A DNA stretch of 64,000 nucleotides from Mycoavidus sp. HKI (lineage in GTDB: Bacteria; Pseudomonadota; Gammaproteobacteria; Burkholderiales; Burkholderiaceae): assembly GCF_020023735.2 (NCBI RefSeq), contig NZ_CP076444.2, positions 697,501 through 761,500 on the forward strand. The letters are read 5' to 3'. The notes under the pieces were generated by a model. The model was not told where the DNA came from, searched no databases, and was given only the letters and a program-made list of their open reading frames with translations. Position 1 is the first letter of the stretch. Each line of letters opens with the position of its first letter. Below are positions 317 to 42,611 of the stretch, piece by piece. The position numbers and the translations under genes are program-made.

Positions 317-675
317 GGGGCCGACTTGGTTTCGACGTGGGTTGCAAAGCAATGTAGGGCATACCGAGGACCCGTTACCTCGTTAATCAATGGGAAAAAA
401 AGTAACTGCAAACGACAAAACGTTCGCTGTAGCCGCTTAATTGCGGCTCGCCTCGCACTCGCTCTCTGACGGGTTAGGGTCGCAAGACCGCGCGAGGTCA
501 TTTACGTCAGACCGTAGTAGGTGATGTCACGGCGTCTACTATTAAATCTAGTGAATCGCTGTAGTAGAGCGTGTTCGTCCGCGCTGCTGCAGTTAAATTA
601 AATGATTGAACTAAGTATGTAGAACTGCTTGTAGAGTGCTTGCGGACGCGGGTTCGATTCCCGCCGGCTCCACCA
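317..675 (+). ncRNA. ssrA: tmRNA (transfer-messenger RNA)
   Basis: The RNA rescues ribosomes stalled on broken mRNA, acting first as an alanine tRNA and then as an mRNA with SmpB. The acceptor stem pairs GGGGCCG at 317 with CGGCTCC ending before ACCA at 672-675, so CCA is encoded. The T arm reads GGTTCGATTCC. The resume codon GCA lies at 408-410, and the tag frame ends with TAA at 438-440, encoding ANDKTFAVAA. The D-like start and the segment around the tag match the one-piece betaproteobacterial form, and the length of 359 bases is normal. An integrase remnant begins 64 bases past the 3' end, as expected where ssrA is an integration site. Confidence 0.97.
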
Positions 676-18270: not shown

Positions 18271-18516
18271 ATGCCTTATAGAGAGATCAATGATTTACCC
18301 GAAAGTGTACAAGCGCATCTCCCTCAGCATGCACAGGAAATTTACAAAGAAGCTTTCAATCATGCGTGGGACGAATACCGTGATGAGAAAGACCGTAGAG
18401 ATAACGCTTCACAAGAGGAAACTGCTCACAAAGTAGCGTGGGCAGCTGTCAAGCGCTTCTATCAAAAAGACGCTAACAGCGGTCAATGGGTGCCAAAGCA
18501 AAAATCGAATGCTTAA
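18271..18516 (+). CDS. chaB: ChaB-family protein
   Basis: An 81-residue protein starting MPYREINDLPESVQAHLP and then QHAQEIYKEAFNHAWDEY, which matches ChaB closely. ChaB is annotated as a regulator of the cation exchanger ChaA, but its molecular role is poorly known. There is no chaA in the window. GGAGA at 18261-18265 supports ATG 18271; an upstream in-frame start at 18226 is less likely. The 3' end overlaps the recC start by 8 bases, so it is probably co-transcribed with recCBD. Confidence 0.9.
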   Translation: MPYREINDLPESVQAHLPQHAQEIYKEAFNHAWDEYRDEKDRRDNASQEETAHKVAWAAVKRFYQKDANSGQWVPKQKSNA

Positions 18517-21500: not shown

Positions 21501-21994
21501 GGCTTCAGTTGATGGGTGTATTGCATGATGTCAGTCAAGACGGGTTGATTCTGTATCGCCATGGGCGGCCTGGCGCACGTGATTATCTTGGCGCATGGCT
21601 GCGTCATCTAGTTTTATGTGTGATGGCTCCGGCGGGGGTGAAGCTGCGCACAGTATGGCTAGGCAACTCGATGAGTTTTACTTTAAACACGGTTAATGAC
21701 GCTCAGACCTATTTGGCTGAATTAATTGCGCTTTATCGTGCAGGCCGCTGTGCGCCGCTGCATTTTTTCCCCAAAAGCGCATGGGCTTTTATCAATGATG
21801 GAGAGGAAGCCGCTCGTAGAATGTGGGCTGGCAATCAAACAGCGCGGCAAACCGTGGCTGAAATGGATGATGCATGGCTGCAGCTTATGCTGCGCGGTGA
21901 ACCGCCGGAAGGGGCCTTGGATGCGCGCTTTAAGGCGCTTGCGCGAGCAGTATTGATGCCGCTGAACGAGCATCTTGAGCGAACTGGCAGCTAA
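18509..21994 (+). CDS. recC: RecBCD subunit RecC (exodeoxyribonuclease V gamma)
   Basis: An 1161-residue protein beginning MLKLFYSNRYEALTDALLDN, then IIVPSVALRRRLELDIATRF and ICMNVDFAYLAQWLW, the N-terminal hallmark of RecC. A conserved block GGVTFSALTSLRGLPYRVVC with LLDMGEGVLP appears at about 660-690, followed by DLMASFSQPGDRQRRDDERT. RecC holds the complex together and recognises Chi while RecB and RecD unwind the duplex. Length is normal. The start overlaps chaB; recB follows after 120 bases. Confidence 0.96.
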   Translation: MLKLFYSNRYEALTDALLDNLADDKSDPWCATSIIVPSVALRRRLELDIATRFGICMNVDFAYLAQWLWAQIGRIYEIPKHSPFAPERLVWHCYHWLDARTWPHEDKERLGAYLQAADDTMRYEFAERVAVLFDQYLTYRPDWLTAWYEGRSLMARRSMAPGQTPNDIGIGATWQSDERWQAQLWRLIFAELAMSGESAPGAYRFLNEASTLSSESVARAGWPKSVSIFALPAMPPLHIALLRELARWIEVRLYVMNPCREYWYDIVDAARVTELALGNKADYHETGNLLLAEWGRQTQAQLHLLQELSEGTVSSETAHYIENDASTWLAALQNAVLNLQQWPVPPAVGEEAATGIEVHVCHSLVRQLEVLHDRLLALLDENLSWTSSDVLVVLPNLAAAAPLIDAVFGATDGKRRIPYSITGLPLLHTNPMARVLYEMLDLPARNIGVANLIEWLRTDALAARYDICQADKTQIDAVASMHTQDGSDAAVFETLRLWLATALARRGLAPSNDTLSSHDSLSAPERHTFADALMRLYLGYALPAGALPIEGYLPILSVSGAQASLLGSLSRFIDDLAALADECALARPAAAWRIVLLNAIERFFVTDAESAQPIADLRATIIELTEAMEAGGAKQPLSAAVLRLALGRVLNQPVRGGVPTGGVTFSALTSLRGLPYRVVCLLDMGEGVLPGKVRTDEFDLMASFSQPGDRQRRDDERTLFLDLVLAARDCLLLAYTGRSIRDNTPLPSAAVVSELLDYLSQALAGPDATQTEMAAARRRFVIEHPLQSFSAEYLSNDGALFTYDSDRAEIATALNSLNAPSAERSAAAFFSAPLPLEESQEIIFDDFERFWQHPVRALLRDRLGLALARAQHELSDFEPFTLEYAGRDALAKRLLPLLLAIGEQPEDIGANQTQGVPPVLFEHARCIAQASPELPNGATGAFVCTRELDALAALAARIRLARTAGVASYPFTLELEPKWPDVPCLLGEHSAAAGGGSRLQLMGVLHDVSQDGLILYRHGRPGARDYLGAWLRHLVLCVMAPAGVKLRTVWLGNSMSFTLNTVNDAQTYLAELIALYRAGRCAPLHFFPKSAWAFINDGEEAARRMWAGNQTARQTVAEMDDAWLQLMLRGEPPEGALDARFKALARAVLMPLNEHLERTGS

Positions 21995-22114
21995 TCGCGA
22001 GTAAAGCTTTAAATTGTCCTATACAGATAGAAATAGGTCCCCCTTTTTTGAGGAAATGGGTGAGTACTTTAGAACCATTTTGGAAAAAGCATATGTACGC
22101 AAGACGGCGGATTT

Positions 22115-25100
22115 GTGGACAGTATTTCGTTTGAGCGTGCGCGCATCGGAGCAAATGCGGTGAGCGCTACGGAGCAGCACAACCATAGTGATGGCGGTGA
22201 ATTTGATGCGTTCAAGTGCCCGCTTGATGGAGTCAATCTGATTGAGGCATCCGCTGGCACGGGTAAGACCTGGAATATTTGCGCTCTATATGTGCGTCTT
22301 TTAGTTGAGAGAGCGCTCGATGTTGAGCAAATTCTTGTCGTTACGTTTACTAAAGCGGCGACCGCTGAACTTCATGAGCGGATTCGTAGCCGTTTGACTG
22401 AGCTCGTCCACGTACTGACAAAAGTGGCCGCGTGCGACGATCCTTTTATGACCGGCTTACTGGCTGTGATAGAGCAGAGCAAGATGACGCGCGCTCAAGC
22501 AAAGCTCAGGCTTGAATACGCACTACACCGTTTTGACCAAGCGGCAATTTATACGGTCCATGCGTTTTGCCAGCGCGCGCTGCAAGAAGCGCCGTTTGCG
22601 GCCGGCATGCCATTTGAATGCGAGCTGCAAACGGATGACGAAATAGTGCGTTTTGAGTTAGCCGTTGAATTTTGGCGTACGCGGATTGAGCCGGCCGCTG
22701 CTGCCCATACCGAGTTTGCAGCTTGGCTGGTTGAGCATGGGGCTGGACCTGCAACGCTGGCTGAAGAGTTTGCGCGGTGCGCACAAAAACCGTTAGCACG
22801 GCTGATGTTCGGCGCAAATCATCTTAACAATATAGATCAATCCTGCTGGCACAATGATACTGTGTCATCACCGCCGCTGATGACTTTGTTTGCCGCTGCC
22901 CGTAGCCTATGGCAAATGCAGCAGAGCGAGATTAAGCAGCAGTTAGATGAAGCATTGCCCGCTCTTAATGCAAATACTTATAAACCCACGACAGTCGCAC
23001 TGGCGCTAAGCTCCTGGGCACGGTATTTCGATGAGGGCAATCCGTCTATTGCGCTGGGTGAAAAAGCCGAACTCCTCACCGCATCAGTCCTCGAAAAGCG
23101 CACTAAAAAAGGGTGTGCCGTACCGAGCCATCCATTTTTCAAGCTAGCGGATGAACTCGTTAGTGCATTACACACGGCCGCTACGCTTAACCGCGCCCAC
23201 TGGTTATCACTCTTATCTGCCTGGTTAAGCTGGGCAGGAGGCGCTTTACGTGAGAAAAAACGCACCCAGCGTGTGATGTCCTTCAATGACTTGCTCACTC
23301 ATTTACACGGTGCGCTCAATCAGCATCCCGGACTCGTGCGCGCGCTTAGGCGGCGTTATGCCGCGGCCTTGATCGACGAATTCCAAGACACTGATCCAGT
23401 GCAGTTTGAGATCTTAAGCCAGATCTTTGCGCCGCATGGCCCGCTCTTTCTAGTTGGAGACCCTAAGCAAGCCATTTATAGTTTCCGAGCGGCCGATCTA
23501 TATACCTATTTACTGGCGCGTAAAGAAGCGTATGCATGCTATACGCTGACCGTGAATCAACGCTCAAGTGCAGCGTTAATTGCTGCCTGCAATCGGATTT
23601 TTAGCGCGAATCCGGCGGCTTTTGTGTTGCCTGGTCTTGATTATCGGTCGGTACGTGCGCATACGCGTGCACGCGACCTTTTTATCGAACCGCCGCGCTT
23701 AAGGTTAGCTTCCGCGGAGCAGCTTGAACCAGAGACCAAGGCGCAGACACCGGATTGCCGCGTTTGGTTATTGCCGCATGGCGACGCCATACTCACTAAG
23801 CCACAAGCGCTCAAAGCGGCGGCGAATGCCTGCGCAGCTGAGATTGCTCGCCTGCTTTCGATCGGTGCGCCCATGTCAGAAGGGGCAACGTATATCGGTG
23901 CTGTCCCGCTTAGCGCGGGTCAAATCGCCGTATTGGTGCAAACCCACCGGCAAGGAAGCCTGATGAAGCAGGCGCTGGCTGAGTGGGGAGTGGGTAGCGT
24001 TGAACTGGCGCAAGTCTCGGTGTTTGAGACTCAAGACGCGGCTCACCTTGAGCATATACTGCTGGCGATTGATGCGCCAGGCGACTTACGCCGCTTGCGT
24101 ACAGCGCTTGCCACTGACTGGATTGGCCTAGATGCGCTGGCGCTCAATGCAATGGATGCCAATGAGCAGGCGCTGCTAGAGCCTAATCTTCACCTATGGG
24201 CGCAAGGGCAAATCGAGGGCTGGGCAGAGTGGATTGATCGATTCGCGCATTACCGTATGCTATGGCATGAACGGGGCTTTGCCTTTATGTGGCGCACGCT
24301 CCTGCGCGCTTTGCGTATCGCCCAACGTATCGCAGTTGGCCCCAATGGCGAGCGGCGCTTAACGGATTTAAGCCACTTGGCGGAACTGGTGCAAGCTCAT
24401 GCGGCTCAGCAAGCGGGAATTGAGCCAGTGCTGCGCTGGCTTGCTACACAGCGTGCCGCGCGCAAGGGCGGCGATGAAGCGCAGTTGCGGCTTGAATCCG
24501 ATCGCGATCTGGTGCAGATTGTGACGGTGCATAAGGCCAAAGGCTTGGAATATGCGGTGGTATTTTGTCCATTTTTAAATGATGGTGCAATTCGTACAGC
24601 GCCCTCAAACAAATTACCTAGTGCGCGCGAATATCATGATGAGCAGGGTCATGCGGTGATTCACTATGGCGCTGACCAAGCTGACGAAGACCGGGCCAAG
24701 GAAGCCGCTAGTTTTGAGCACTCAGCTGAGCGTGTGCGCTTAATCTATGTTGCGCTGACGCGCGCAGTTTACCGCTGCTATATAGTGGCTGGCTTGTATA
24801 TAAGCGGGCCACAACGATCAACTAAGCAAGCGCGGCAAAGTATGCTGAACTGGCTGGTGGCAGGTGCCGGGTATGATTTTTCAAGCTGGTTAGTTAAACC
24901 GCCAACAGAGGACGAAATATCCGCCTGCTGGCATGCATTGGCTAATGAATATTCTGTTTTGGACACAACTGAACTGGATGCGCTCAATTCTAAAAAACGT
25001 ATTGAGGGGAAGTTCATTACGATTGAACCGTTGCCGATGCTGCACCAGCGTGCGCTAAAGCCCTTGCCCGTAGCGCCGCCGGCAGTGTTGCGCGCGCGCG

Positions 25101-25951
25101 TGCTGCGGCGGCCATCCTTTGTCAGCTGGCGGCTCGCCAGTTTTAGCTCGCTCTTAAGCCATGCACGCCCTGTTGAACCGGCAGAAATCTTATCCGCTGC
25201 CAGTCCGTCTGCTGGGGCAGACGATATTGTTCATTTTCCGCGTGGTGCAGCTGCCGGCGAGTATCTGCACCGGTTATTTGAGCTAACAGATTTCACTACG
25301 TCAGCGAGCTGGCCTGCAGCGATTGAGCGCGTGTTGCAAGAGCGCATGTTGCCAGCAGGGGCAGAGCCTACTGTGTCAGTCGCCATGATGACGCGTTTAT
25401 TAAGCGATCTAGCCGTGACAGAGCTGGTGCCTGGTCTGAGGCTTGCTACGGTGGCTGAAAACCGTATTTTCCGTGAATTGGAGTTTACTTTTACCGCTCA
25501 TGCTCTAGATTTATCCGCCCTGCGCGCACTCTTGAAAACGCACGGCTATCTAGACATTGACTTTGAGGCAAGCGAGCTAACAGGCTATATGAAAGGCATA
25601 ATCGATCTCGTGTTTGAGCACGACGGCCGTTTCTGGATTGCAGACTGGAAATCGAACCATCTTGGCAATACTGCCGTTCACTATAATCAAGTCGCATTGC
25701 ATACTGCTATGGCTGCCCATGGCTACCATTTACAGGCGCTTCTCTATACGCTTGCGCTACATCGTTATTTACGCATTAAACAGCCCGCTTATGACTACAC
25801 CACGCATTGCGGCGGGTACTTATATTTATTTGTGCGAGGCGTGCGTCCAGACTGGCAGGTAGAAGGGCAGGCGGCTGGTGTTTATCATCATAAACCTACA
25901 GCGGCGATGATCGATGCGCTGGATCGCCTCATGCATGGAGAGCGCTCATGA
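22115..25951 (+). CDS. recB: RecBCD subunit RecB (helicase-nuclease, exodeoxyribonuclease V beta)
   Basis: A 1278-residue 3'-5' helicase with a C-terminal nuclease domain. Walker A is IEASAGTGKTWNI (about 44-56). The helicase core includes LIDEFQDTDPVQFEIL (Walker B), VGDPKQAIYSFRAADLYTYL, and VHKAKGLEYAVVFCPF (motif V). The nuclease motif is intact: GYMKGIIDLVFEHDGRFWIA followed by DWKSNHLG, with Asp, Asp and Lys. Start is GTG 22115, the first in-frame start after the upstream stop region; the ribosome site is weak. RecD overlaps its end by 4 bases (ATGA). Confidence 0.96.
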   Translation: MDSISFERARIGANAVSATEQHNHSDGGEFDAFKCPLDGVNLIEASAGTGKTWNICALYVRLLVERALDVEQILVVTFTKAATAELHERIRSRLTELVHVLTKVAACDDPFMTGLLAVIEQSKMTRAQAKLRLEYALHRFDQAAIYTVHAFCQRALQEAPFAAGMPFECELQTDDEIVRFELAVEFWRTRIEPAAAAHTEFAAWLVEHGAGPATLAEEFARCAQKPLARLMFGANHLNNIDQSCWHNDTVSSPPLMTLFAAARSLWQMQQSEIKQQLDEALPALNANTYKPTTVALALSSWARYFDEGNPSIALGEKAELLTASVLEKRTKKGCAVPSHPFFKLADELVSALHTAATLNRAHWLSLLSAWLSWAGGALREKKRTQRVMSFNDLLTHLHGALNQHPGLVRALRRRYAAALIDEFQDTDPVQFEILSQIFAPHGPLFLVGDPKQAIYSFRAADLYTYLLARKEAYACYTLTVNQRSSAALIAACNRIFSANPAAFVLPGLDYRSVRAHTRARDLFIEPPRLRLASAEQLEPETKAQTPDCRVWLLPHGDAILTKPQALKAAANACAAEIARLLSIGAPMSEGATYIGAVPLSAGQIAVLVQTHRQGSLMKQALAEWGVGSVELAQVSVFETQDAAHLEHILLAIDAPGDLRRLRTALATDWIGLDALALNAMDANEQALLEPNLHLWAQGQIEGWAEWIDRFAHYRMLWHERGFAFMWRTLLRALRIAQRIAVGPNGERRLTDLSHLAELVQAHAAQQAGIEPVLRWLATQRAARKGGDEAQLRLESDRDLVQIVTVHKAKGLEYAVVFCPFLNDGAIRTAPSNKLPSAREYHDEQGHAVIHYGADQADEDRAKEAASFEHSAERVRLIYVALTRAVYRCYIVAGLYISGPQRSTKQARQSMLNWLVAGAGYDFSSWLVKPPTEDEISACWHALANEYSVLDTTELDALNSKKRIEGKFITIEPLPMLHQRALKPLPVAPPAVLRARVLRRPSFVSWRLASFSSLLSHARPVEPAEILSAASPSAGADDIVHFPRGAAAGEYLHRLFELTDFTTSASWPAAIERVLQERMLPAGAEPTVSVAMMTRLLSDLAVTELVPGLRLATVAENRIFRELEFTFTAHALDLSALRALLKTHGYLDIDFEASELTGYMKGIIDLVFEHDGRFWIADWKSNHLGNTAVHYNQVALHTAMAAHGYHLQALLYTLALHRYLRIKQPAYDYTTHCGGYLYLFVRGVRPDWQVEGQAAGVYHHKPTAAMIDALDRLMHGERS

Positions 25952-27702
25952 GGTCGGGGTGGTTAACGGATAGCTTTCCGCCGACATCAGTTCATGCAAA
26001 TAATGCAGCTATACTTACGCAGCAGCCACCAGCTGCATCTCTATTTTTAGCGGAGGGTTTTGCGCAGCGCATCAATGCCCTGGCCCTGCAGCTTGGCGCC
26101 AGCGCCCAGGCCGCACGTGTTACTGCCCTGGCGGCGGCCGAAGTAAGCCGTGCGGGTTCGTCTGGACATGTTTGCATCGCACTCGATGCCTTCGCTGAGC
26201 GCCTCGGTGAAACATCACAGGCGGTGCAGCGGTGGCTATTCTCAAGTGGTCTGGTCAGTGACGGCCAGGCCGCAGATATCGAATTGCTGCCGCTGGTACT
26301 GGATGAGGGTGGGCGGCTTTACCTGGCGCGTTATTATGCCTATGAGCGGCGGATTGCACAGGTGCTTGCCGCGTGCGCCTGCTCGGGTCGACTCACTGTA
26401 GTCAGCGGCGGGCCAGGCACAGGTAAGACCACGGCAATGGTCGGTCAGCTGGTTCGTCTACTTGAAGCTAACCCGGCACTTCGTATCGTGCTTGCGGCAC
26501 CTACCGGTAAAGCTGCTCAGCGCATGCTTAGCGCGCTCGCCGAACGTGCCAGCGCTCTACCTGCAGCTATTAAACAGCGCTTACCTAAACACTCTTTCAC
26601 CTTACACCGATTGCTTGGCACGGGTTTAAAGGCTAACGCTCAGCTTCCTGTGCCGCTGCCCTATGATGTTGTTGTGATTGACGAGGCGTCGATGATCGAC
26701 GTTGCACTGGCAGCACAACTGGTCGCGGCCCTCGCACCGCATAGTTGGCTTATTTTGTTAGGTGATAAAGATCAGCTGGCGGCGGTTGAGGCAGGGGCAG
26801 TATTTGCTGAGCTGAATGTCAGCAAAGGATTGGCCGAGTGTGTTAGCCGCCTCGAACATAATTACCGTTTTGGGCTTGAGTCAGCCATCGGACGGCTATC
26901 GCTAGCGATTCGTGCTGGCTCGCCAAAGGATGCATTAGCGGCATTAGTCCTACAGCCGCCAACGTTGCCAGCACAAGCAGACCTCCTATCTGATTCAACA
27001 GGGGCTGCAGTCTTGATCGACGATCACGGTGAGACACTTGCAGCGAGTTCGTTAAACCTGATGGCAGACGGTTTCGCACCGTATGCAAAGGCGTTAAAAG
27101 ACCTGCTATATGCGCTGACTGAACTGCAGGCGAGTCCTGATCTAGGCCCTCTATTTGAGGCCTTAAACCACTATCGGGTATTAAGTGCCGTACGCGCAGG
27201 CCCGCGCGGGGTTGAGAAGCTCAATGCGTTGTTAGCGACTCGTGTATGCGCTATGGCCGGCATTCAGGTGGCGAGCGGGGCAGCATGGTTTGCTGGCCGG
27301 CCGGTGATGATTACACGCAACGATTATGCGCTTGGCCTTTTTAACGGCGATATGGGCATTGCATTACCCGTTGCGGGAAATAAATTTCGCATTGTTTTTC
27401 CAACCACGGATGGCGGTTGGCGTGTGTTATCTTCTGCTGTATTGCCACCTCATGAAACTGCGTTTGCTTTAACTGTGCATAAATCGCAAGGCTCGGAATT
27501 TAACCAGTTGGCTTTTGTCTTGCCTGCAATAGCCCATGGCGGGCTCACGCGTGAACTGGTCTATACCGCCATTACGCGTGCTCGGCAAACTCTGACAATA
27601 TTGGGTAGTCCCAGTGTATTTGGGCAAGCAGTTGCAACCCCAACCATCCGTGCAGCAGGATTATCCGTTCGTCTAGAAGAGGCGATCATGGCGCTCTCAT
27701 GA
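25948..27702 (+). CDS. recD: RecBCD subunit RecD (5'-3' helicase, exodeoxyribonuclease V alpha)
   Basis: A 584-residue SF1 helicase. Walker A is VVSGGPGTGKTTAMVGQ (about 151-167), then LAAPTGKAAQRM (motif Ia). DEAD-like VVIDEASMIDVALAAQLV follows, and GDKDQLAAVEAGAVF (motif III). Near the end, ALTVHKSQGSEFNQLAFVLP and RELVYTAITRARQTL are motifs V and VI. It drives the fast strand of RecBCD. The ATG overlaps the recB stop, so translation is probably coupled. The end overlaps mltB convergently by 6 bases. Confidence 0.96.
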   Translation: MRSGWLTDSFPPTSVHANNAAILTQQPPAASLFLAEGFAQRINALALQLGASAQAARVTALAAAEVSRAGSSGHVCIALDAFAERLGETSQAVQRWLFSSGLVSDGQAADIELLPLVLDEGGRLYLARYYAYERRIAQVLAACACSGRLTVVSGGPGTGKTTAMVGQLVRLLEANPALRIVLAAPTGKAAQRMLSALAERASALPAAIKQRLPKHSFTLHRLLGTGLKANAQLPVPLPYDVVVIDEASMIDVALAAQLVAALAPHSWLILLGDKDQLAAVEAGAVFAELNVSKGLAECVSRLEHNYRFGLESAIGRLSLAIRAGSPKDALAALVLQPPTLPAQADLLSDSTGAAVLIDDHGETLAASSLNLMADGFAPYAKALKDLLYALTELQASPDLGPLFEALNHYRVLSAVRAGPRGVEKLNALLATRVCAMAGIQVASGAAWFAGRPVMITRNDYALGLFNGDMGIALPVAGNKFRIVFPTTDGGWRVLSSAVLPPHETAFALTVHKSQGSEFNQLAFVLPAIAHGGLTRELVYTAITRARQTLTILGSPSVFGQAVATPTIRAAGLSVRLEEAIMALS

Positions 27703-28830
27703 TCCTGCGCTCATTTGCAAGCGCTGCTTAACTTGCTGGCCAAGCTGGTAGACGCTTAGCGCATAAAAAAAACTGCGGTTATAGTGTGTGATCACAGCAA
27801 AATTGCGTAGGCCCAGTTTATATTCGGTTGGCTGCTTAGGAGTGGGTAAATCGATAATATTAACCAATGTGTTCGACTCAGCCTCTAGGTTGAGAGTTTC
27901 ATTGAGTAATAGGCCTGCTTTATGAAGTTCGCCTAGCGTTCGGCGAGGTTCAATTTTCCCATCTGCGCCGGCTTGCGCAAGGCCTAGGCTACCGCTATCA
28001 GAGGCAATTTCCCAAATCACCGGCCGGCCAGCTTCCCAGCCGTGTTGGCGCAGATAATTGGCAACACTGCCAATTGCATCAGCAACGCTCGTACTTAAAT
28101 CGACCTTCTGATCACCATCATAATCAATGGCGTACTGTATAACGCTGCTTGGCATAAATTGCGCAATACCCACGGCTCCGTTATAGGAGCCTAAAATGCG
28201 AGTTGGATCAAGACCCGCAGCACGGGTCCAGAGTAGAAAGGCTTCTAAATTTTTGCGAAATAGCGCTGCACGTTGCAACTGATTTGGCTTCGTTGGATAG
28301 TCAAAAGTTAAGGTCGTCAGGACATCCAATACAGGGTGACGGCCCATATTACGGCCATAAAAAGTCTCAACGCCAATGATCCCAACAATAATCTCAGGTG
28401 GCACACCAAATTCTTGCTGCGCGCGCTGTAAAATTGCTTGATGAGTGCGCCAGAACTGCACGCCAGCATTAATGCGCTCTGCATTAAGAAACCGTGACTG
28501 ATAAGTACGCCAATCGCGAGGCGATGCTGCAAGGGACGGCTGTTCAAGTTTAACAACCGCGGCTGAGTATTTAGCTTGCGTGAAAAGCGCGCGTAGCACG
28601 CTAGGCTCAAAGTGATGGCGTATCACTAGATCACTGATGAAAGTCTCGACAGCTGGATTGTTTTGATAGCGTTTTGAAACGTTTTCTTTTTCGGAATTTT
28701 GCTGTGCCGGTGTGCAACCCGCTACGAGCGTACTCCCTACAGCCAATATTCCGACCCCGCTCAGAAACAGGCAGGAGAGAAATATACGGCGGGCAGCAGA
28801 AATAGCTAAAATGTGCGTCGCAGTCATCAT
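27697..28830 (-). CDS. mltB: Membrane-bound lytic murein transglycosylase B
   Basis: A 377-residue lipoprotein that cleaves peptidoglycan between MurNAc and GlcNAc. The signal segment ends with the lipobox LVAGC, giving Cys39 as the lipidated residue. The catalytic Glu is in VGIIGVETFYGRNMG (E155). Later family blocks are SYNGAVGIAQFMPSSVIQYA, followed by IDYDGDQKVDL, and then VANYLRQHGWEAGRPV. The presence of all of them marks the SltB/MltB group. Gene length is normal. It is convergent with recD and overlaps it by 6 bases. Confidence 0.94.
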   Translation of the reverse strand: MMTATHILAISAARRIFLSCLFLSGVGILAVGSTLVAGCTPAQQNSEKENVSKRYQNNPAVETFISDLVIRHHFEPSVLRALFTQAKYSAAVVKLEQPSLAASPRDWRTYQSRFLNAERINAGVQFWRTHQAILQRAQQEFGVPPEIIVGIIGVETFYGRNMGRHPVLDVLTTLTFDYPTKPNQLQRAALFRKNLEAFLLWTRAAGLDPTRILGSYNGAVGIAQFMPSSVIQYAIDYDGDQKVDLSTSVADAIGSVANYLRQHGWEAGRPVIWEIASDSGSLGLAQAGADGKIEPRRTLGELHKAGLLLNETLNLEAESNTLVNIIDLPTPKQPTEYKLGLRNFAVITHYNRSFFYALSVYQLGQQVKQRLQMSAGS

Positions 28831-29138: not shown

Positions 29139-29345
29139 CAGTCCCCGCAAAGTATAGATATACTCCTTGCACGTGCTGGAACGACAGACCAAGAGGCTCG
29201 CGTATCATCATCTAGTGCCAATCATGCTCCTAGCGCACTTGACCCTAGCGGAAGCCAGCGGACGAAACATCGAGGCAGGTTTGCCCAAGTGGGCGCTGCG
29301 TTGAAACACTTAATAGAAAATAACAGGGGGGACATGATGTGTTAG
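29139..29345 (+). other. Upstream open frame overlapping the NACHT gene start
   Basis: This frame is open for 68 codons after TGA 29136-29138 and ends with ATG ATG TGT TAG at 29334-29345, overlapping the NACHT GTG start by 7 bases. Its text looks protein-like: ARVSSSSANHAPSALDPSG, then RGRFAQVGAALKHLIENNRG. There is no ATG at its beginning, so it may be a remnant of a longer N-terminal part, now out of frame. Alternatively its end may act as a tiny leader (two ATG codons) coupling translation to the GTG. Confidence 0.4.
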
Positions 29346-32300
29346 GCAATATCTTTTCGTCATCACGGAGCGCGCTCTCACCACAGAAAACACTAGACCT
29401 TGCTAACTGTTATTTAGAGAATGCCCGCAAGGCCAAGGACCTCGAAATAGCTTTAGTGTTATGCGACGACGCGGAAGCCTCGTTATCTCAGATGAAAAGA
29501 GCTTTGAGAAAAGCGCATACTCCTGAGACCCTAGCAGATCAAACCCTGCGGACTAAAATCGGTACCGTTTATTTCGAGCACGGCAAAGTGTTAGAAAACT
29601 TAGGTCACTCCGATAAGGCGCAGGTCAGCTATAAAAAAGCAGAAAAGTGGGGATATGTCCAGGAGCAAGCCAGGCCGATTGTTTCCTCTCGTCCCAGCAG
29701 CACGTTTGAGTCGATTAAAGGCGGATTCCATTCTCACCCCGCTTCAGCCACGCCCCAACACGCCTCCACAGCAGATAATAAGGGCAGTCTGGGCCGCAAT
29801 ATCGCCCAGATTCCTGCCCATATTTTTGCGCAGAATGTGTCTGCACCGGTTGAGCGCTATGACTTACCGCAAGCAGATGACCACTTCACCAGCACCCCCC
29901 AACTTGTGTACTGCTTGAGCCTGTTACCCAGTGTCTCGTTAGAGCATAGATCCCTCAATGAAAAAGAAAGTGACTGGTCACAGGCCCTAGCAAAAGATGA
30001 AGTAGAACAAAAAAGGCTCCGTAGCCTGGCAACCAATTTGATCCGGGAATTCATCGAGGATCCACTCCAAGAGGCCACCACCGTAGCCGAAATGGTGTAC
30101 CTGGCCCCAGTTCTCGAGCAGGAGCACTTTAAAAAGCTCATAGCACAGTGTGTAGATGGCATAAATCAATCAGTCTTGTTGGATTCTCCTTTACTGGAAG
30201 GACTGGCTCAACTGATTCAACATACGACTCCTGGTTATTTAACGGAAGATGATTTAGCAAAAATATTAAAACTCTTAGATGCACGTTTAGAAGATACCCA
30301 TGGGCAGTCTACGGACCCTATTTATCAATTAACGCGCACGGTATCGCACGTATTGGATGCGATGGCCGATAGCCACGTCATGGGCGTAAAACGCGAAGCC
30401 CTCCATGCTCCGCTCTCTGCGTATCTAGAAGGGTTAAAGAGTAGCGATGACCCATATCTCGTCTACCAAGCCGCCTATGCCGCTCAAGCTTTGCTATACG
30501 TGCCCAATGATGAAATGCTATTGGACGCGGTGCAACGAATCGGAGGAAAAATATTGGGGGGTGCCGCAGAGATAGTGAGTGCCATCAAAGGCTTTGACCT
30601 GAATGGTTTCATAGACGGCTTAAAGAGTATTCAAGAGGGAGTAGGCGGGATCGTAATCGCCGCTAAAACCCTCAAGGAAGGCTATGACACGGTGATGTCA
30701 TTGAAGGAGAGCGGGCAAAGTTTTCTTGAAAGCCTGCAAGAAGGATACAGTTTTGACCGTAAAAGTGCATGGTATCCCGCCTTGCAAGTCGCCGATCAGT
30801 TGCTACAAAAAGGGCGGCTCGCAGACTTCAAAGAGTTGGTGTGCGCAGCACCCTGTCGGCGCGCTTCTGCTTTTCAGTGGGGGGTATGCGAACGCTTAGC
30901 GCAACTGGCTGCTAATCCGCTGTGGGATGCGGGCATACGGCAAAGCGCGTTGGACTTTTTAGGTGCGCTGTATAAAGACGATGCGACGTGGGGGCACCAC
31001 GCCAACGTCAAGCAATGGATTATTAAGATTCTAATGCACCTAGCCGATTCGTCTGAGCGTACGCTAAAGAGCAAAATTTCCCTTAAAGCCTCGGAAAAGT
31101 CGTTTGAGATAGCAGTAGCGGCCAAAACTCTGCTTAAAGCGTTGAAAAAGAGTGAGGATGCTAAGAAACAAAAGCTTTATGAAGACTGTATAAAAGAGGG
31201 CAAAGGCCGATGTCCCTATACCCTGAATGTAGGACCACCGCTGCTCGCTTCGCCATCCTTGTTAGACCGCATTCAGAATAAGCCTGACGTCGAGACTGAC
31301 TTGCGCAAGCTCAAACGTCAGCGCTTAAAAGAACGGAGTGGCGGCGTGTATGTCTCCCCACAAGCCAAGCATAGCCTAAAAGCGCGCGATACAGCACTGT
31401 TTGATCTAACCCAAAAGGTCAACGACTTTCTGGATAATAATCAAAAGGTGATGTTGCTCTTAGGCGATTCCGGTGCGGGTAAATCGACCTTTAATCGGGC
31501 GCTCGAAACCGCCCTCTGGGACGTCTATGAGACAGCGGAAGACCCGAGCATCCCCCTCTTTATTAACTTGCCTGCGATTGACAAGCCAGAACAGGATCTG
31601 ATCCCCAAACAATTACGCAAGGCAGGCTTTACCGAACCGCAGATTAGAGCGTTAAAGGAGCATCACAAATTTGTCTTGATTTGTGACGGCTATGATGAGA
31701 GCCAACAAACCCATAATCTGTATACCAATAACCTGCTAAATCAGCCAGGAGAATGGCAGGCGCAGATGGTGATCAGCTGCCGTAGCGAATATATTGGCCT
31801 CGATTATCGGGATCTCTTTCAGCCGACGGACGGCCATTACCAGGATGAATCGACGCTTTTTCAGGAAGCGGTCATCACCCCATTTTCCGAGGGGCAAATT
31901 AAAGATTACGTCAGGCAATATGTGTCCGTGATTAGACCGCTCTGGCAGGAGAGTGACTACCTACAGGCACTTAAGGGTATCCCCCATTTACAAGATTTGG
32001 TGAAAAATCCCTTTCTTTTAACCCTATCCCTAGAGGTGCTCCCTCGCTTGGTGGATCTAAGAAAAGAGTTTTCTACGGTCCGCTTAAGCCGCGTTGCGCT
32101 CTATGACCAGTTCGTGGAGCAATGGCTGGAGCGTGGTAAAAAACGATTAGGCAAAAAAGAATTAACCGGTCCAGAAAAAAAAGCCTTTGAAAGTTTAGCA
32201 GATGAAGGGTTTACGCAGAACGGCATCGTTTTTTTGAAAAACTTGTCGGCCGCTATTTATGAGCATCAAGCGGGGCATCCGGTGGTCGAGTATTCGCACT

Positions 32301-35074
32301 TTAGAGATCAAGAAACGTGGAAAGAGGCCTTTTTTAGCCGAGAAGATGAAAAACACCTGCTGCGTGAAGCCCTGCCGTTAAACCGCAGTGGCAATCAGTA
32401 TCGATTTATCCATCGGTCGTTACTGGAATACGGGGTGGCCCGCGCGGTGTTTGAACCGCAAAATAAGGAGCACGCAAAGAAAGTTGCCTTTAAGCCAGCT
32501 CTGGCCCGTCGAGGCAGCGTGAGTTCCATCTTAAGTTTTGAAAGCCAAACCGCTTCGAAAGAAGCCACTATAGCCGTTGAGCAGCCGGTGCTCGATTCGC
32601 CTTTGGCGAAGAAGAATTTCGTCGGTGAGCCGTCCGTTCTGCAATTTTTAGTGGAGCGCGTTCAACAAGAGCCTTTGTTCAAGCAACAGTTGCTCGCAGT
32701 GATTGAACGTTCAAAAATAGAAAGAACAGACAACCCGCTACGCAACGCAGTGCGTAAGGCCGCGGCCAATGCGATCACGATCTTGGTGAGAGCGGGTGTG
32801 CCATTTAATGGCGCGGATTTACGGGGCATCCAGATTCCCGGGGCGGATCTGAGTGAGGGCGAGTTCGATTCTGCGCAGTTGCAAGGGGCCGATTTAAGAA
32901 AGGTCAATCTTCGCGCTATCTGGCTGCGCCAAGCGAATTTGAGTGGCGCGCAGATGACCGGCGTGCAGTTTGGCGAATGGCCTTTTATCCAAGAAGAGGC
33001 CGGCGTGCTGGCCTATGCATATTCACCTGATGGCGATGCTTGTGCCATCGGTCTGAGTAACGGAAACATCAATCTTTATGATACAGCAAGTCAGGCAAAA
33101 ATCTATGCCTTACGCGGCCATGCCGACGCCGTTAGGAGTGTCGCGTATTCATCGCAAGGTGGGCAGTTCGCTTCTGGCAGTCGGGATACTACCGTGCGGC
33201 TGTGGGACGTAACAACAGGCACTGTGCGCCACACCTTACGCGGCCATACGGATGAGGTAAATAGCGTAGCCTATTCACCGTCAGGGGATCAACTCGCCTC
33301 TGGCAGTTGGGACAATACTGTCAGGCTGTGGGATGTGAAAACGGGTACCTGCCTGCGCACTTTAGACAAACATGGTGATAGAGTCTTGAGCGTAGCGTAT
33401 TCACCGCAAGGGGGGCAACTTGCCTCTGGGAGTTGGGACGATACCGTCAGGCTGTGGGATGTGAAAACCGGCACTTTGCTCCACACCTTACGCGGACATA
33501 CTCATGGGATCAATAGCGTAGCATATTCGCCGAAAGGGGATCAACTCGCCTCTGCGAGTGCTGACAGTACAGTGATGCTGTGGAATGTAGAAGGCGGCAC
33601 TTGGCTTCGCACCTTAAGCGTCGAGGGCCATGCCCTTGTCGTTAATAGCGTAGCGTATTCGCCGCGAGGAGATCAACTCGCCTCAGGGAGTTGGGACAAT
33701 ACCGTCAGGCTGTGGGACGTAGAAACGGGCACTTGCCTACGCATCTTAAGCGGGCATAGTCGTAACGTTACGATCGTAGCCTATACACCGAAAGGGGGAC
33801 TAATCGCTTCTGGTAGTGCAGATGAAACAGTCCGGTTGTGGGATATAGAAACGGCCGTTTGGCGCTCCATCTCAAACGGCCATACTGATTGGGTTAACAG
33901 TGTGGCGTATGCATCCCAAGGGGATCTGATCGCCTCTGGCAGTGATGACGAGACCGTGCGACTGTGGGATAGGGAAACGGGCGCTTTACGCCACACCTTA
34001 CGTGGACATGCTAAGTGGGTAAATAGCGTAGCGTTTGCACCGCAAGGCGGGCAGATCGCCTCTGGCAGCTGGGATAATACCGTGCGGCTGTGGGACGTAG
34101 AAACGGATTCTTTGCCTCGTATCTTAAGCGAACATACGGATAGAGTTAGGAGCGTAGCGTATTCACCGCAAGGGGATCAACTCGCCTCTGGAAGCCACGA
34201 CTGCACCGTGCGGCTGTGGGACGTAAAAACCGGTACTTTGCGCGCCACCTTAAGCGGCCATACGGATAGAGTTATGAGTCTAGCCTATTCACCGCAAGGG
34301 GATTTGATCGTCTCTGGCAGTGATGACCAGACCGTACGGCTGTGGAACGTAACCACGGGCACTGTGCGCCACGTCTTACACCAACATACGAGTTGGCTTA
34401 GGGGCGTGGCCTATTCACCGCAAGGCAATCAAATTGCTTCTGGCAGTAATGACCAGACCGTGCGGCTGTGGGACGTAGAAACCGGCGCTGTGCTCCACAT
34501 CTTAAAAGGACATACTAATTGTGTTAGAAGCGTAGCCTATTCACCGCAAGGAGATTTGATCGCCTCTGGCAGCGATGACCATACCGTGCGGCTGTGGGAC
34601 GTAAAAACGGGCCAGTGTCAGGGGGAGGTCAAATGTTTTACCGGGCCAGTCATGAGTGTCGCTTGGAATGCGAGTATCAATGGGACGTATTTAGTGACCG
34701 GCGGTGCCGATCACTCGGTCCGCCGGTGGGAGATAAAAAAAGAGGCGGAAAAAGATAAGGTGATTTTGTGCTGGAGTTCGACACATCACGTGCTTACCGT
34801 GACGGATACATCCATCGAAGGTGCACACGGCTTAAGTGGGATAAAAAAGCAACTCTTAAAGCAGCGCGGGGCAATGGGTGAGCCGGCTTTACGCTTCCAC
34901 CAGACAACTAGGCAACTAAGCGGCGTGCTATCCGCGGCAGCTAAATTCAAGCAGCTGGCAAAACCTAAAACGTTGGATGCCCTCCCTGCAGCACTATCCA
35001 GTCCATCGATCGGAGAGTCAGTCAGGTCAGGACAATCGGTAAACGCGCAGTCCGTACCTTCTAATCTTGCATGA
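29339..35074 (+). CDS. NACHT ATPase with pentapeptide and 14 WD40 repeats (NLR-like protein)
   Basis: A 1911-residue STAND protein. Residues 1-110 contain TPR-like helices (TVYFEHGKVLENLGHSDKAQ), followed by about 550 residues of helical, HEAT-like sequence with no known enzyme motif. NACHT follows: Walker A GDSGAGKST (709-717), Walker B LICDGYDES (about 781-789), a sensor-like VISCRSEY, and FIHRSLLEYGVARAVF near 1020. A pentapeptide block (GADLRGIQIPGADLS and on) lies at about 1156-1210. From 1225 to 1814 there are 14 WD40 blades of about 42 residues (SVAYSPQGDLIASGSDDHTV type), enough for two 7-blade propellers. Start is GTG 29339 with GGGGGG upstream; no ATG is possible because of a TAA in frame. 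The layout recalls fungal HET-E/NWD receptors and bacterial NACHT defence proteins. Phage defence or host interaction are both open. Confidence 0.93.
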   Translation: MLGNIFSSSRSALSPQKTLDLANCYLENARKAKDLEIALVLCDDAEASLSQMKRALRKAHTPETLADQTLRTKIGTVYFEHGKVLENLGHSDKAQVSYKKAEKWGYVQEQARPIVSSRPSSTFESIKGGFHSHPASATPQHASTADNKGSLGRNIAQIPAHIFAQNVSAPVERYDLPQADDHFTSTPQLVYCLSLLPSVSLEHRSLNEKESDWSQALAKDEVEQKRLRSLATNLIREFIEDPLQEATTVAEMVYLAPVLEQEHFKKLIAQCVDGINQSVLLDSPLLEGLAQLIQHTTPGYLTEDDLAKILKLLDARLEDTHGQSTDPIYQLTRTVSHVLDAMADSHVMGVKREALHAPLSAYLEGLKSSDDPYLVYQAAYAAQALLYVPNDEMLLDAVQRIGGKILGGAAEIVSAIKGFDLNGFIDGLKSIQEGVGGIVIAAKTLKEGYDTVMSLKESGQSFLESLQEGYSFDRKSAWYPALQVADQLLQKGRLADFKELVCAAPCRRASAFQWGVCERLAQLAANPLWDAGIRQSALDFLGALYKDDATWGHHANVKQWIIKILMHLADSSERTLKSKISLKASEKSFEIAVAAKTLLKALKKSEDAKKQKLYEDCIKEGKGRCPYTLNVGPPLLASPSLLDRIQNKPDVETDLRKLKRQRLKERSGGVYVSPQAKHSLKARDTALFDLTQKVNDFLDNNQKVMLLLGDSGAGKSTFNRALETALWDVYETAEDPSIPLFINLPAIDKPEQDLIPKQLRKAGFTEPQIRALKEHHKFVLICDGYDESQQTHNLYTNNLLNQPGEWQAQMVISCRSEYIGLDYRDLFQPTDGHYQDESTLFQEAVITPFSEGQIKDYVRQYVSVIRPLWQESDYLQALKGIPHLQDLVKNPFLLTLSLEVLPRLVDLRKEFSTVRLSRVALYDQFVEQWLERGKKRLGKKELTGPEKKAFESLADEGFTQNGIVFLKNLSAAIYEHQAGHPVVEYSHFRDQETWKEAFFSREDEKHLLREALPLNRSGNQYRFIHRSLLEYGVARAVFEPQNKEHAKKVAFKPALARRGSVSSILSFESQTASKEATIAVEQPVLDSPLAKKNFVGEPSVLQFLVERVQQEPLFKQQLLAVIERSKIERTDNPLRNAVRKAAANAITILVRAGVPFNGADLRGIQIPGADLSEGEFDSAQLQGADLRKVNLRAIWLRQANLSGAQMTGVQFGEWPFIQEEAGVLAYAYSPDGDACAIGLSNGNINLYDTASQAKIYALRGHADAVRSVAYSSQGGQFASGSRDTTVRLWDVTTGTVRHTLRGHTDEVNSVAYSPSGDQLASGSWDNTVRLWDVKTGTCLRTLDKHGDRVLSVAYSPQGGQLASGSWDDTVRLWDVKTGTLLHTLRGHTHGINSVAYSPKGDQLASASADSTVMLWNVEGGTWLRTLSVEGHALVVNSVAYSPRGDQLASGSWDNTVRLWDVETGTCLRILSGHSRNVTIVAYTPKGGLIASGSADETVRLWDIETAVWRSISNGHTDWVNSVAYASQGDLIASGSDDETVRLWDRETGALRHTLRGHAKWVNSVAFAPQGGQIASGSWDNTVRLWDVETDSLPRILSEHTDRVRSVAYSPQGDQLASGSHDCTVRLWDVKTGTLRATLSGHTDRVMSLAYSPQGDLIVSGSDDQTVRLWNVTTGTVRHVLHQHTSWLRGVAYSPQGNQIASGSNDQTVRLWDVETGAVLHILKGHTNCVRSVAYSPQGDLIASGSDDHTVRLWDVKTGQCQGEVKCFTGPVMSVAWNASINGTYLVTGGADHSVRRWEIKKEAEKDKVILCWSSTHHVLTVTDTSIEGAHGLSGIKKQLLKQRGAMGEPALRFHQTTRQLSGVLSAAAKFKQLAKPKTLDALPAALSSPSIGESVRSGQSVNAQSVPSNLA
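33011..34780 (+). repeat. Tandem WD40 repeat array (about 126 bp units)
   Basis: Fourteen units, the first and last degenerate, lie inside the NACHT gene. The inner ones repeat the phrase for VAYSPQG, ASGS and VRLWDV with very similar bases, for example AGCGTAGCGTATTCACCG. Such likeness at DNA level suggests recent duplication or gene conversion among units. Unit 5 is two codons longer. Confidence 0.9.
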
Positions 35075-35255: not shown

Positions 35256-35340
35256 GCCCAGGTGGTGAAATAGGTAGACGCAGGGGACTCAAAATCCCCC
35301 GCCGCAAGGCGTGCCGGTTCGATTCCGGCCCTGGGCACCA
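35256..35340 (+). tRNA. tRNA-Leu (anticodon CAA)
   Basis: The acceptor stem pairs GCCCAGG at 35256 with CCTGGGC before the encoded ACCA at 35337-35340. The anticodon stem GGGGA and TCCCC frames the loop CTCAAAA, so the anticodon is CAA. A long variable arm (CGCCGCAAGGCG) and the T arm GGTTCGATTCC fit class II leucine tRNA. An integrase tail lies 55 bases downstream. Confidence 0.96.
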
Positions 35341-40977: not shown

Positions 40978-40999
40978 GTGTCAAATTATTAAATGACAC
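40978..40999. promoter_or_regulatory. Inverted repeat at the hipBA start, candidate HipB operator
   Basis: GTGTCA and TGACAC form a perfect 6-bp inverted repeat spaced by 10 bases. It covers the expected transcription start and the first ATG, an ideal place for self-repression by the HipB-like protein. Confidence 0.5.
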
Positions 41000-41310
41000 A
41001 ATATTATATGTCTTATAAAGAGCTTTTTCAGCATCTGCGAACCATGCGTAAGCAAGCGGGCATCAAGACAGCGCAGATCATCGCTAACACAGGATGGTCT
41101 CGCCAGCGCTTGTCACAGCTTGAGCGCGGTGAAGTGGACGCGCAATTGTCCACCTTGATTGCGTTAGCTAATGCAGTAGGGGCAGAAGTGATGCTGGTAC
41201 CTAAAGCTTTGGCGCCGTTGACTCGGGATTTCATCGCTAGCGAGGGAGCGTTATCACCGCGTACAACCAAAACGGGCATTGAGTTCTTGCTTGAGAAACC
41301 TCGCTCATGA
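40993..41310 (+). CDS. HipB-like antitoxin/repressor
   Basis: A 105-residue XRE-type protein: LFQHLRTMRKQAGIKTAQII and NTGWSRQRLSQLERGEVDAQ form the helix-turn-helix. Such proteins neutralise the HipA kinase and repress the operon. ATG 40993 lies only about 12 bases after the likely transcript start, so translation could be leaderless or nearly so; ATG 41008 is an alternative. Neither has a clear ribosome site. The end overlaps hipA by 4 bases (ATGA), which couples the two. Confidence 0.82.
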   Translation: MTQYYMSYKELFQHLRTMRKQAGIKTAQIIANTGWSRQRLSQLERGEVDAQLSTLIALANAVGAEVMLVPKALAPLTRDFIASEGALSPRTTKTGIEFLLEKPRS

Positions 41311-42611
41311 AATTCCTGGCCATCTACCTTAACGAAACTCGAGTTGGCTTTTTGTCGCAATTTGGGGATATTTATCAATTTTTGGCAGACGATAGCTATT
41401 TAGCGGAACCGAATCGGCCCACTTTATCGCTGGCTTACACGGTTCTTGGCAACGATCAACTTACGCGTCAATTACTCACCGAACCTGCAACGATTTTAAC
41501 CCGCGGTTTTGGCCGTTTGCCCCCTTTTTTTGATAATTTATTGCCGGAAGGGGTATTGCGAGAGTGGCTGGCCGCCGAGCGTCATATCGCCCTCAATGAC
41601 GGTCTAGAATTATTGGCTGCAGCTGGCAATAATTTACCTGGCGCGGTCATTGTACGCCCTGAATTGCCAGCGGAAAGTGTCAAACTAAAACACTATACAA
41701 ATAAAAAAAATGCCTTGCAATCTCAGGGCGTCGAAGCGCCGCTTGTAGATGCTTTTTCGCTCGCTGGCGTGCAATTCAAGCTCGCCTTATCCGCGCTTGA
41801 CGGGAATCAGCGTTATACGATGCATTTCGAAGAGGGGATTGACGGTGAGCCGATTATCGGTAAATTTCCCGCGGCACAACGTAGCGATATGGTCTATACT
41901 GAGTTTTCTGGAATGGAGCTGACTCGTGTGGCTGGGATCGAAACGGCGGATTGCTGGCTAGCTCCGATCACCGCGCTAGATAAAAGGTCGCAAGTTAAAA
42001 CACAGTCATCACTAGGAAAAGAGTTTTTGGCTGTCAGGCGCTTTGACCGAAAAGCGGGCGGAGGCCGTGTTCATATCGAAGATTTCTGTCAGGTGTTGAG
42101 TATGGCGCCTGAACGTAAATACGGTAAACCGGCTGATTATGAAACACTGGCCGCTATACTGCTACGTGCCGCCGCAGATGGAGAGCAACAAGTTGAAGCT
42201 TATATACGTCGGCAGGTCGTCAATACACTGCTAGGCAATACGGATGCACATTTAAAAAATTTTTCACTCATCTACCGTAATGGCTGCAGTCCGGAATTGG
42301 CGCCAGCCTATGATCAAGTTCCTGTGTTTCTGTATTTTGATGAGACTCCAACTCTCGCCATCAACAAAAAAATCGATGCAATACTCACCGCACAGACTCT
42401 GAAGACTTACCGTGAACTCTTCAAGCAACTGGGTTTAAGTCCGGCTTTAGCGGCGCAGATTGTCAAAGATACGGTTGAGCGGTGCCTAGCATTATGGCCA
42501 GAGGCAATGCGCCATTTGCCGCTGACTGTTAAGCAACGCCATAAAATTGAACATCGGATAAACCATTTGCCGTTAGTGCTAGAGATTCTCAGGCGTCGCT
42601 CATTTAAATAA
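41307..42611 (+). CDS. HipA-family serine/threonine kinase toxin
   Basis: A 434-residue toxin. The N-terminal subdomain (residues 1-100) has LPPFFDNLLPEGVLREWLA, typical of HipA. Kinase marks are GEPIIGKFPA (nucleotide site), RRQVVNTLLGNTDAHLKNFS (catalytic Asp in NTDAHLKN, about 311-320) and ELAPAYDQVP (metal Asp, where many have YDLVP). In E. coli, HipA phosphorylates GltX and triggers persistence; the target here is unknown. The gene is complete, unlike the remnant at 11973. Confidence 0.9.
   Translation: MKFLAIYLNETRVGFLSQFGDIYQFLADDSYLAEPNRPTLSLAYTVLGNDQLTRQLLTEPATILTRGFGRLPPFFDNLLPEGVLREWLAAERHIALNDGLELLAAAGNNLPGAVIVRPELPAESVKLKHYTNKKNALQSQGVEAPLVDAFSLAGVQFKLALSALDGNQRYTMHFEEGIDGEPIIGKFPAAQRSDMVYTEFSGMELTRVAGIETADCWLAPITALDKRSQVKTQSSLGKEFLAVRRFDRKAGGGRVHIEDFCQVLSMAPERKYGKPADYETLAAILLRAAADGEQQVEAYIRRQVVNTLLGNTDAHLKNFSLIYRNGCSPELAPAYDQVPVFLYFDETPTLAINKKIDAILTAQTLKTYRELFKQLGLSPALAAQIVKDTVERCLALWPEAMRHLPLTVKQRHKIEHRINHLPLVLEILRRRSFK

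Follow-up and report, generated by a model that had tools for sequence, protein, structure and literature searches.

Mycoavidus sp. HKI carries a gene for a 1911-residue NOD-like receptor (NLR) with the architecture ARM_5-NACHT-pentapeptide-WD40, located in a 64,000-nucleotide stretch of its genome (contig NZ_CP076444.2, positions 697,501 to 761,500 of the forward strand) that we call the window. We found that this gene belongs to a family that is expanded in Mycoavidus and shared with fungi of the Mortierellomycota, where its closest non-bacterial relatives make up a large receptor family. Its architecture is ordinary for a bacterial-fungal NLR family already in print, and its setting is extraordinary; new are the stand-alone ARM_5 partner proteins and the codon pattern of the WD40 repeats. 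We propose, with somewhat less than even confidence, that Mycoavidus maintains a diversifying repertoire of NLR recognition in which ARM_5 is a swappable output, connected by fusion or by prion-like templating between neighbours, and that the lineage of the window gene founded the large ARM_5 NLR family of Mortierellomycota. If this is true, bacterium and host hold two branches of one receptor system.

Three genomes recur below: G000, the window's own genome (one contig of 2,254,889 bases); G001, a sister genome; and G002, a genome of the same genus, M. cysteinexigens. Proteins of G002 are identical, over the aligned part, to entries named M. cysteinexigens, which supports the endofungal setting supposed in the first-pass annotation; the bearer of the gene is likely a Mycoavidus-type endosymbiont of Mortierellomycota.

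Domain architecture of the window protein

The open reading frame (ORF) and its domains are as follows.

29339..35074, +, NLR gene (ARM_5-NACHT-pentapeptide-WD40), 1911 residues, GTG start (ORF and Pfam)
29381..29647, +, TPR-like helical leader, residues 15-103 (TPR_8, below cut-off)
29993..31087, +, ARM_5 domain (PF23948), residues 219-583, helical solenoid (Pfam, model)
31448..31927, +, NACHT domain, residues 704-863 (Pfam)
31463..31486, +, Walker A GDSGAGKS, residues 709-716 (sequence reading)
31676..31699, +, Walker B LICDGYDE, residues 780-787 (sequence reading)
32804..32914, +, pentapeptide repeats, residues 1156-1192 (Pfam)
32987..34729, +, WD40 array of 14 units, the first degenerate, residues 1217-1797 approximately
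34730..35071, +, C-terminal tail, no family match

The layout is beyond chance by far. ARM_5 scores 238 bits (cut-off 27), NACHT 34.5 (26.7) and the pentapeptide family 36.7 (20.2). With NACHT over its curated cut-off, both Walker motifs intact, pentapeptides and C-terminal WD40 sensor repeats, the complete STAND (signal transduction ATPase with numerous domains) layout described in the first-pass annotation is confirmed. Its count of 14 blades is also fair: Pfam marks 13 WD40 stretches, 13 W-anchored units are spaced 42-44 residues apart, and a degenerate extra unit can be seen by eye near residues 1217-1250. In the DNA the array is a 126-nucleotide tandem repeat of 11.7 copies with 71% matches, and it probably forms two 7-bladed propellers. 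Pfam assigned 0 families to residues 1788-1911. By analogy with the NACHT STAND class, the protein would be expected to oligomerise in a nucleotide-dependent manner after ligand binding. The earlier annotation had placed the gene at 29139..35074; the ORF stands and the start does not, since 29139 lies 200 nucleotides upstream of the first start codon. The GTG start itself follows a run of six G by 7 nucleotides.

The N-terminus is the part for which the first-pass annotation had expected a new output. As it had stated, residues 1-640 contain no known effector enzyme motif, Pfam and PADLOC indicating none. The claim of novelty is not supported in that form, because the N-terminus is Pfam ARM_5 and a long helical NLR N-terminus is already in print (PMC9815663). 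Even with E allowed up to 1, Pfam assigned residues 1-660 nothing beyond ARM_5 and a weak TPR_8. A model of this region (27 alignment rows) is all helical, with mean pLDDT 69 and pTM 0.60; compared with known structures, it matched ARM/HEAT/TPR repeat proteins best, with modest scores. Foldseek against the PDB returned three matches at E <= 0.001, all to one engineered repeat protein and with TM scores below 0.3, and a PDB sequence search with the same residues returned a single match, a designed protein, at E 0.035. Nor is the N-terminus a common housekeeping TPR/HEAT protein, as ARM_5 is rare: a draw of 398 genomes from the same family, own genome included, contained 4 with PF23948, and the domain was found in 4 of 61 relatives, in one of 398 genomes drawn phylum-wide (the window's own) and in 0 of 14 controls.

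ARM_5 as a candidate output module

What does ARM_5 do? It is probably the output module, because elsewhere in the genus ARM_5 is a separate protein joined to an NLR only by a common amyloid-signalling-like motif. Seven long ARM_5 proteins that lack NACHT turned up in the parts of G001 and G002 that were examined. A motif profile built from NLR N-termini only (25 genes, 24 distinct segments, five out of register) was searched against 619 ORFs; it matched further NLR N-termini, chance matches and the C-terminal part of six of the seven NACHT-less ARM_5 proteins, with independent E-values of 1.1e-6, 8.7e-6, 1e-5, 1.5e-5, 0.052 and 0.37. For each of the six, none of 2000 shuffled sequences reached the real motif score. 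G002_158357 has pentapeptides and WD40 as well; the other five are ARM_5-only. Four of the six, all in G002, adjoin a motif-bearing NLR on the same strand (gaps of 119, 179, 304/277 and 1246 bp); there the motif stands at the N-terminus of the NLR and near the C-terminus of the ARM_5 partner. G002_461969, in which ARM_5 is followed in a single chain by a complete NLR N-terminus with the motif and then by NACHT, reads as a fusion of two such partners.

This is the layout of bacterial amyloid signalosomes, in which two neighbouring genes carry the motif in the NLR N-terminus and in the C-terminus of the effector (PMC7889193). In those systems the partners are BELL, TIR or CHAT (PMC7889193, PMC8086366), whereas here the partner is ARM_5 and the likeness is one of layout; the window gene, which is fused instead, is without the motif, none being visible by eye in residues 584-703 and none of the motif profile matches falling in it. 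Stand-alone ARM_5 partners with a motif appear to be new, and we found no description of them in the accessible parts of the literature on Mycoavidus NACHT, NLR, WD40 or amyloid. Several points weigh against an output role for ARM_5. Two of the six motif scores, 0.052 and 0.37, are weak. Two of the six proteins are not beside a motif-bearing NLR: one lies beside an ARM_5-NACHT gene, and the one from G001 beside an opposite-strand NLR without the motif. No Pfam RHIM or amyloid model matched the seven motif-bearing pieces, and no enzyme or membrane part through which it might kill was seen in ARM_5.

The ARM_5 slot is also occupied differently among paralogues. In G000, 11 ORFs have another domain in this slot and five have ARM_5, while the leader, NACHT, pentapeptides and WD40 are kept; the TPR-like leader is thus present ahead of either kind of domain. 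G000_1861035, for example, matches the window protein at 149 bits in the leader, 409 in NACHT and 906 in pentapeptide-WD40, and has a different domain at the ARM_5 position. We considered a TIR-like label for the slot domain of the 11 paralogues. It was not confirmed: with E up to 0.05, Pfam gave no TIR or SEFIR match in any of 10 N-termini scanned (nine of the slot-domain class), and the AlphaFold model, with mean pLDDT 49, is unusable. The label rests on a remark on TIR-like domains in Mycoavidus (PMC9815663) and on sequence reading.

Codon variation in the WD40 repeats

The WD40 codon pattern of this bacterial family is new. We compared 584 family repeats from 65 genes; repeats without H4 or D26 were dropped, so both positions are fixed by construction. 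Independent repeat pairs of at least 85% identity numbered 147, and in 107 of these both repeats came from the same gene. Across all 147, the ratio of nonsynonymous to synonymous change (pN/pS) was 2.67 (2.34-3.03) at codons 7, 9, 25 and 27 and 0.40 elsewhere. Only two of 111,930 four-codon sets do as well, this set included; codon 6 is high too. Within the window's own genome the ratio at these codons was 2.03 (1.60-2.56; 35 pairs). The ratio was lower in two subsets, which count against the variable-sensor reading: the window gene alone, at 1.09 (0.67-1.54; 6 pairs), and the five NLRs with ARM_5 in its genome, at 1.20 (0.97-1.45; 18 pairs). In these genes the four codons are relaxed relative to the rest (0.38-0.44) and not shown to be under positive selection.

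Positive selection at the same four codons has been described in the HNWD family of Podospora (PMC1805685). HNWD proteins (HET-D/HET-E/HET-R; PMC1805685, PMC2873952) share with the family studied here NACHT with tandem 42-residue WD40 repeats, the codon excess and near-identical repeats within genes. In contrast to them, the window gene is bacterial, has ARM_5 in the probable output slot and gives no HET domain match in residues 1-660. Whole modules may also have been exchanged. Among the ORFs compared, the window WD40 is nearest to that of G002_977934 (58% identity), whereas the ARM and NACHT regions of the two are distant (26% and 39%), which fits module exchange.

Fungal relatives and the direction of transfer

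Of 7979 candidates scored in a protein database search with residues 200-1140, at least 1174 proteins reached E <= 1e-5. The best 120 of these comprise 99 with Mortierellaceae-type fungal names, two bacterial ones (Mycoavidus, Glomeribacter) and 19 without a name; for the genus Benniella the placement was looked up. Among the fungal-named matches listed, identity ranges from 42 to 63%, with P0019 at 61% over 99% of ARM and NACHT. The resemblance to fungal NWD receptors remarked on in the first-pass annotation is therefore real homology for ARM_5 and NACHT with Mortierellomycota proteins. Some of the fungal copies are on contigs of megabase size, such as that of P0035 (6,574,654 bases), too long for the genome of this endosymbiont. 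One row of fungal name, Linnemannia gamsii P0137, differs from Mycoavidus SF9855 P0132 by 0.16-0.17 changes per column; we took it for probable endosymbiont contamination of a fungal assembly and left it out of the fungal rows counted below.

Transfer from bacterium to fungus has already been argued for these proteins, at about 45-50% identity (PMC11291939), and a long helical NLR N-terminus common to Mortierellomycetes and Mycoavidus has been reported with the direction left open (PMC9815663). The NACHT-(PPR)-WD40 NLRs and NLR_Helical N-terminus of those reports agree with the window gene in architecture, organisms and helical N-terminus. What differs here is a window subfamily up to 61% identical to a fungal protein, a tree with tests, the ARM_5 partners and the WD40 codons.

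In which direction did the gene travel? Bacterium-to-fungus transfer is favoured by sequence comparison, though not settled. Only proteins that covered at least 85% of the ARM+NACHT query were retained, 199 in all, and 60 of these entered a mixture-model tree (LG+C20, posterior mean site frequency; 919 columns) and its tests. The 39 fungal rows form a single clade (100/100); joined to it as sister (99/98) are seven Mycoavidus-type rows, the window gene among them. Five Glomeribacter-type rows fall outside both (100/98), and the rows that branch off basally here are further bacterial ones, with no fungal row. Eight of the 60 rows (long branches or outgroup) were removed for reruns and for half-alignment trees, and the result was unchanged after removal of long branches.

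The opposite history, in which the gene came to the bacterium from a fungus or went to the fungus and returned, is unlikely in our judgement, although some trees point toward it. FastTree (LG) places the window's bacterial clade inside the fungi (supports 0.965 and 0.968), and the NACHT half sets the Mycoavidus rows among fungi (85/91), with fungal monophyly neither supported nor rejected (p 0.16). Against this history stand the nesting of the fungi within a bacterial clade in the mixture-model tree, with bacterial rows alone at its base, and the approximately unbiased (AU) test under the mixture model, which rejects the FastTree grouping (p-AU 0.00135) for groups named after the FastTree trees had been seen. 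The round trip, which was a FastTree suggestion, is rejected by the same test. The ARM half likewise rejects the FastTree grouping (p 0.00287) and does not nest the fungi; it even draws the 12 window-clade bacterial rows as one clade (support 46). Reciprocal monophyly of bacteria and fungi, with those 12 rows as a single clade, was only moderately rejected (p-AU 0.0199).

Two further placements were observed. On the full alignment P0010 falls with the window subclade, on the NACHT half with Glomeribacter-type rows, a shift that marks recombination between ARM and NACHT. The Glomeromycotina ARM_5-NACHT relatives P0150 (Glomus cerebriforme) and P0197 (Cetraspora pellucida) branch apart from the Mortierellomycota clade, so another transfer may have occurred.

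NLR abundance and the tRNA-Leu locus

Mycoavidus genomes are rich in NACHT genes. G000 has 22 NACHT matches in 2.25 Mb, 20 of them over cut-off; G001 has 11, with eight of those listed over cut-off; and G002 has at least 66 (66 of 164 candidates scored). The other 38 genomes scanned with these have at most three listed matches over cut-off each. Over the genome stretches examined, home-made NACHT profiles counted 76 NACHT ORFs in G002, some of them fragments, amounting to 321 kb or about 11.5% of the 2.80-Mb genome, and 18 in G000 (88 kb). A pattern search of genome contigs gave 17 matches and no relative, in a contig set that may leave out own or near genomes. Two NACHT loci of G000 deserve mention: at 1832521-1837410 a paralogue with the other N-terminal domain is split by an in-frame TAG and is a probable pseudogene, and at 1128169-1131672 a NACHT protein has an N-terminus that is CHAT-like by eye, which Pfam did not confirm.

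The tRNA-Leu locus of the window gene is polymorphic in the genus. Its local features are listed here.

27697..28830, -, transglycosylase SLT_2 (MltB-like) gene, left border
29227..29327, +, conserved 5' region, putative promoter or leader, from likeness to paralogue G000_870229
35256..35340, +, tRNA-Leu(caa), bordering the insertion
G002 977231.. and 983666.. (locus L105, 12232-12329 and 18667-19901), GDT1-family gene end duplicate

The window NLR gene sits with the MltB-like gene on its left and tRNA-Leu on its right. In G001 these two neighbours are about 35 bp apart with no NLR between them, an empty site, and in G002 another ARM_5 NLR, G002_977934, lies on the far side of tRNA-Leu. Beside the G002 insert is a 98-bp partial duplicate of the end of a GDT1-family gene, as if left by an insertion event; no agent that could have mobilised the genes was found. 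The region 5' of the window gene is 76% identical over 105 nucleotides to the same place before G000_870229. G001 has a second MltB-like gene (837716-838864), 76% identical to that of the window.

Proposed function and site of action

Why would an intracellular bacterium with a reduced genome keep many NLR genes? We consider the chances about even that the window protein is an NLR-type receptor with ARM_5 output, acting in the bacterial cytosol on mobile elements. The WD40 face would bind a variable ligand, ATP exchange would make NACHT oligomerise, and the output would lie in clustering of the ARM_5 solenoid, with direct ARM_5 fusion replacing the motif link in the window gene. The most likely site would be the bacterial cytosol, where the protein may act against prophage-type or other mobile elements through cell killing or arrest. 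In M. cysteinexigens, prophages occupy 11.5% of one genome and 7.2% of another (PMC5877345).

PADLOC gives no strong match, which counts against this proposal: a PDC-S60 match is weak (19.3 bits, E 6e-5, ATPase only), and a HEAT-ARM_XIII match falls on the WD40 region. The window protein differs in this from bacterial NACHT/Avs-type anti-phage STAND proteins, which likewise combine a STAND ATPase with a repeat sensor. The genome also has a type III export gene (FHIPEP), so export is possible, and delivery into the fungus is the main alternative to cytosolic action. The bacterium would then export NLR-like proteins that imitate or jam the related fungal NLR system, as the close fungal relatives and a putative type III secretion system in strain B1-EB (PMC5877345) would allow. 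We regard this as rather unlikely, since a 1911-residue NLR is, in our judgement, large for export and the prophage load provides a sufficient target inside the bacterium. Less likely still is a repeat gene that is mobile and selfish, or decaying, and that owes its persistence to duplication and not to function. The polymorphic tRNA-Leu site, the duplicate beside the G002 insert and the TAG-split paralogue are of the kind that such a gene would leave, but over ARM and NACHT the window gene and G000_870229 differ by dN 0.152 and dS 0.767 (dN/dS about 0.2), the Walker motifs are intact and the excess of change is codon-specific.

The window gene bears on the origin of the NLR repertoire in an early-diverging fungal phylum and on the role of the orphan helical N-terminus of fungal receptors, and the stand-alone ARM_5 partners make the question of output directly testable.

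Other genes in the window

Directly upstream of the NLR locus, at 18509-27702 (+), is a RecC gene followed by two long ORFs that are RecB-like and RecD-like by eye. A helix-turn-helix gene and a HipA-like kinase gene at 40993-42611 (+) are probably a HipBA-type pair, and a tmRNA gene with the tag ANDKTFAVAA lies at 317-675 (+).

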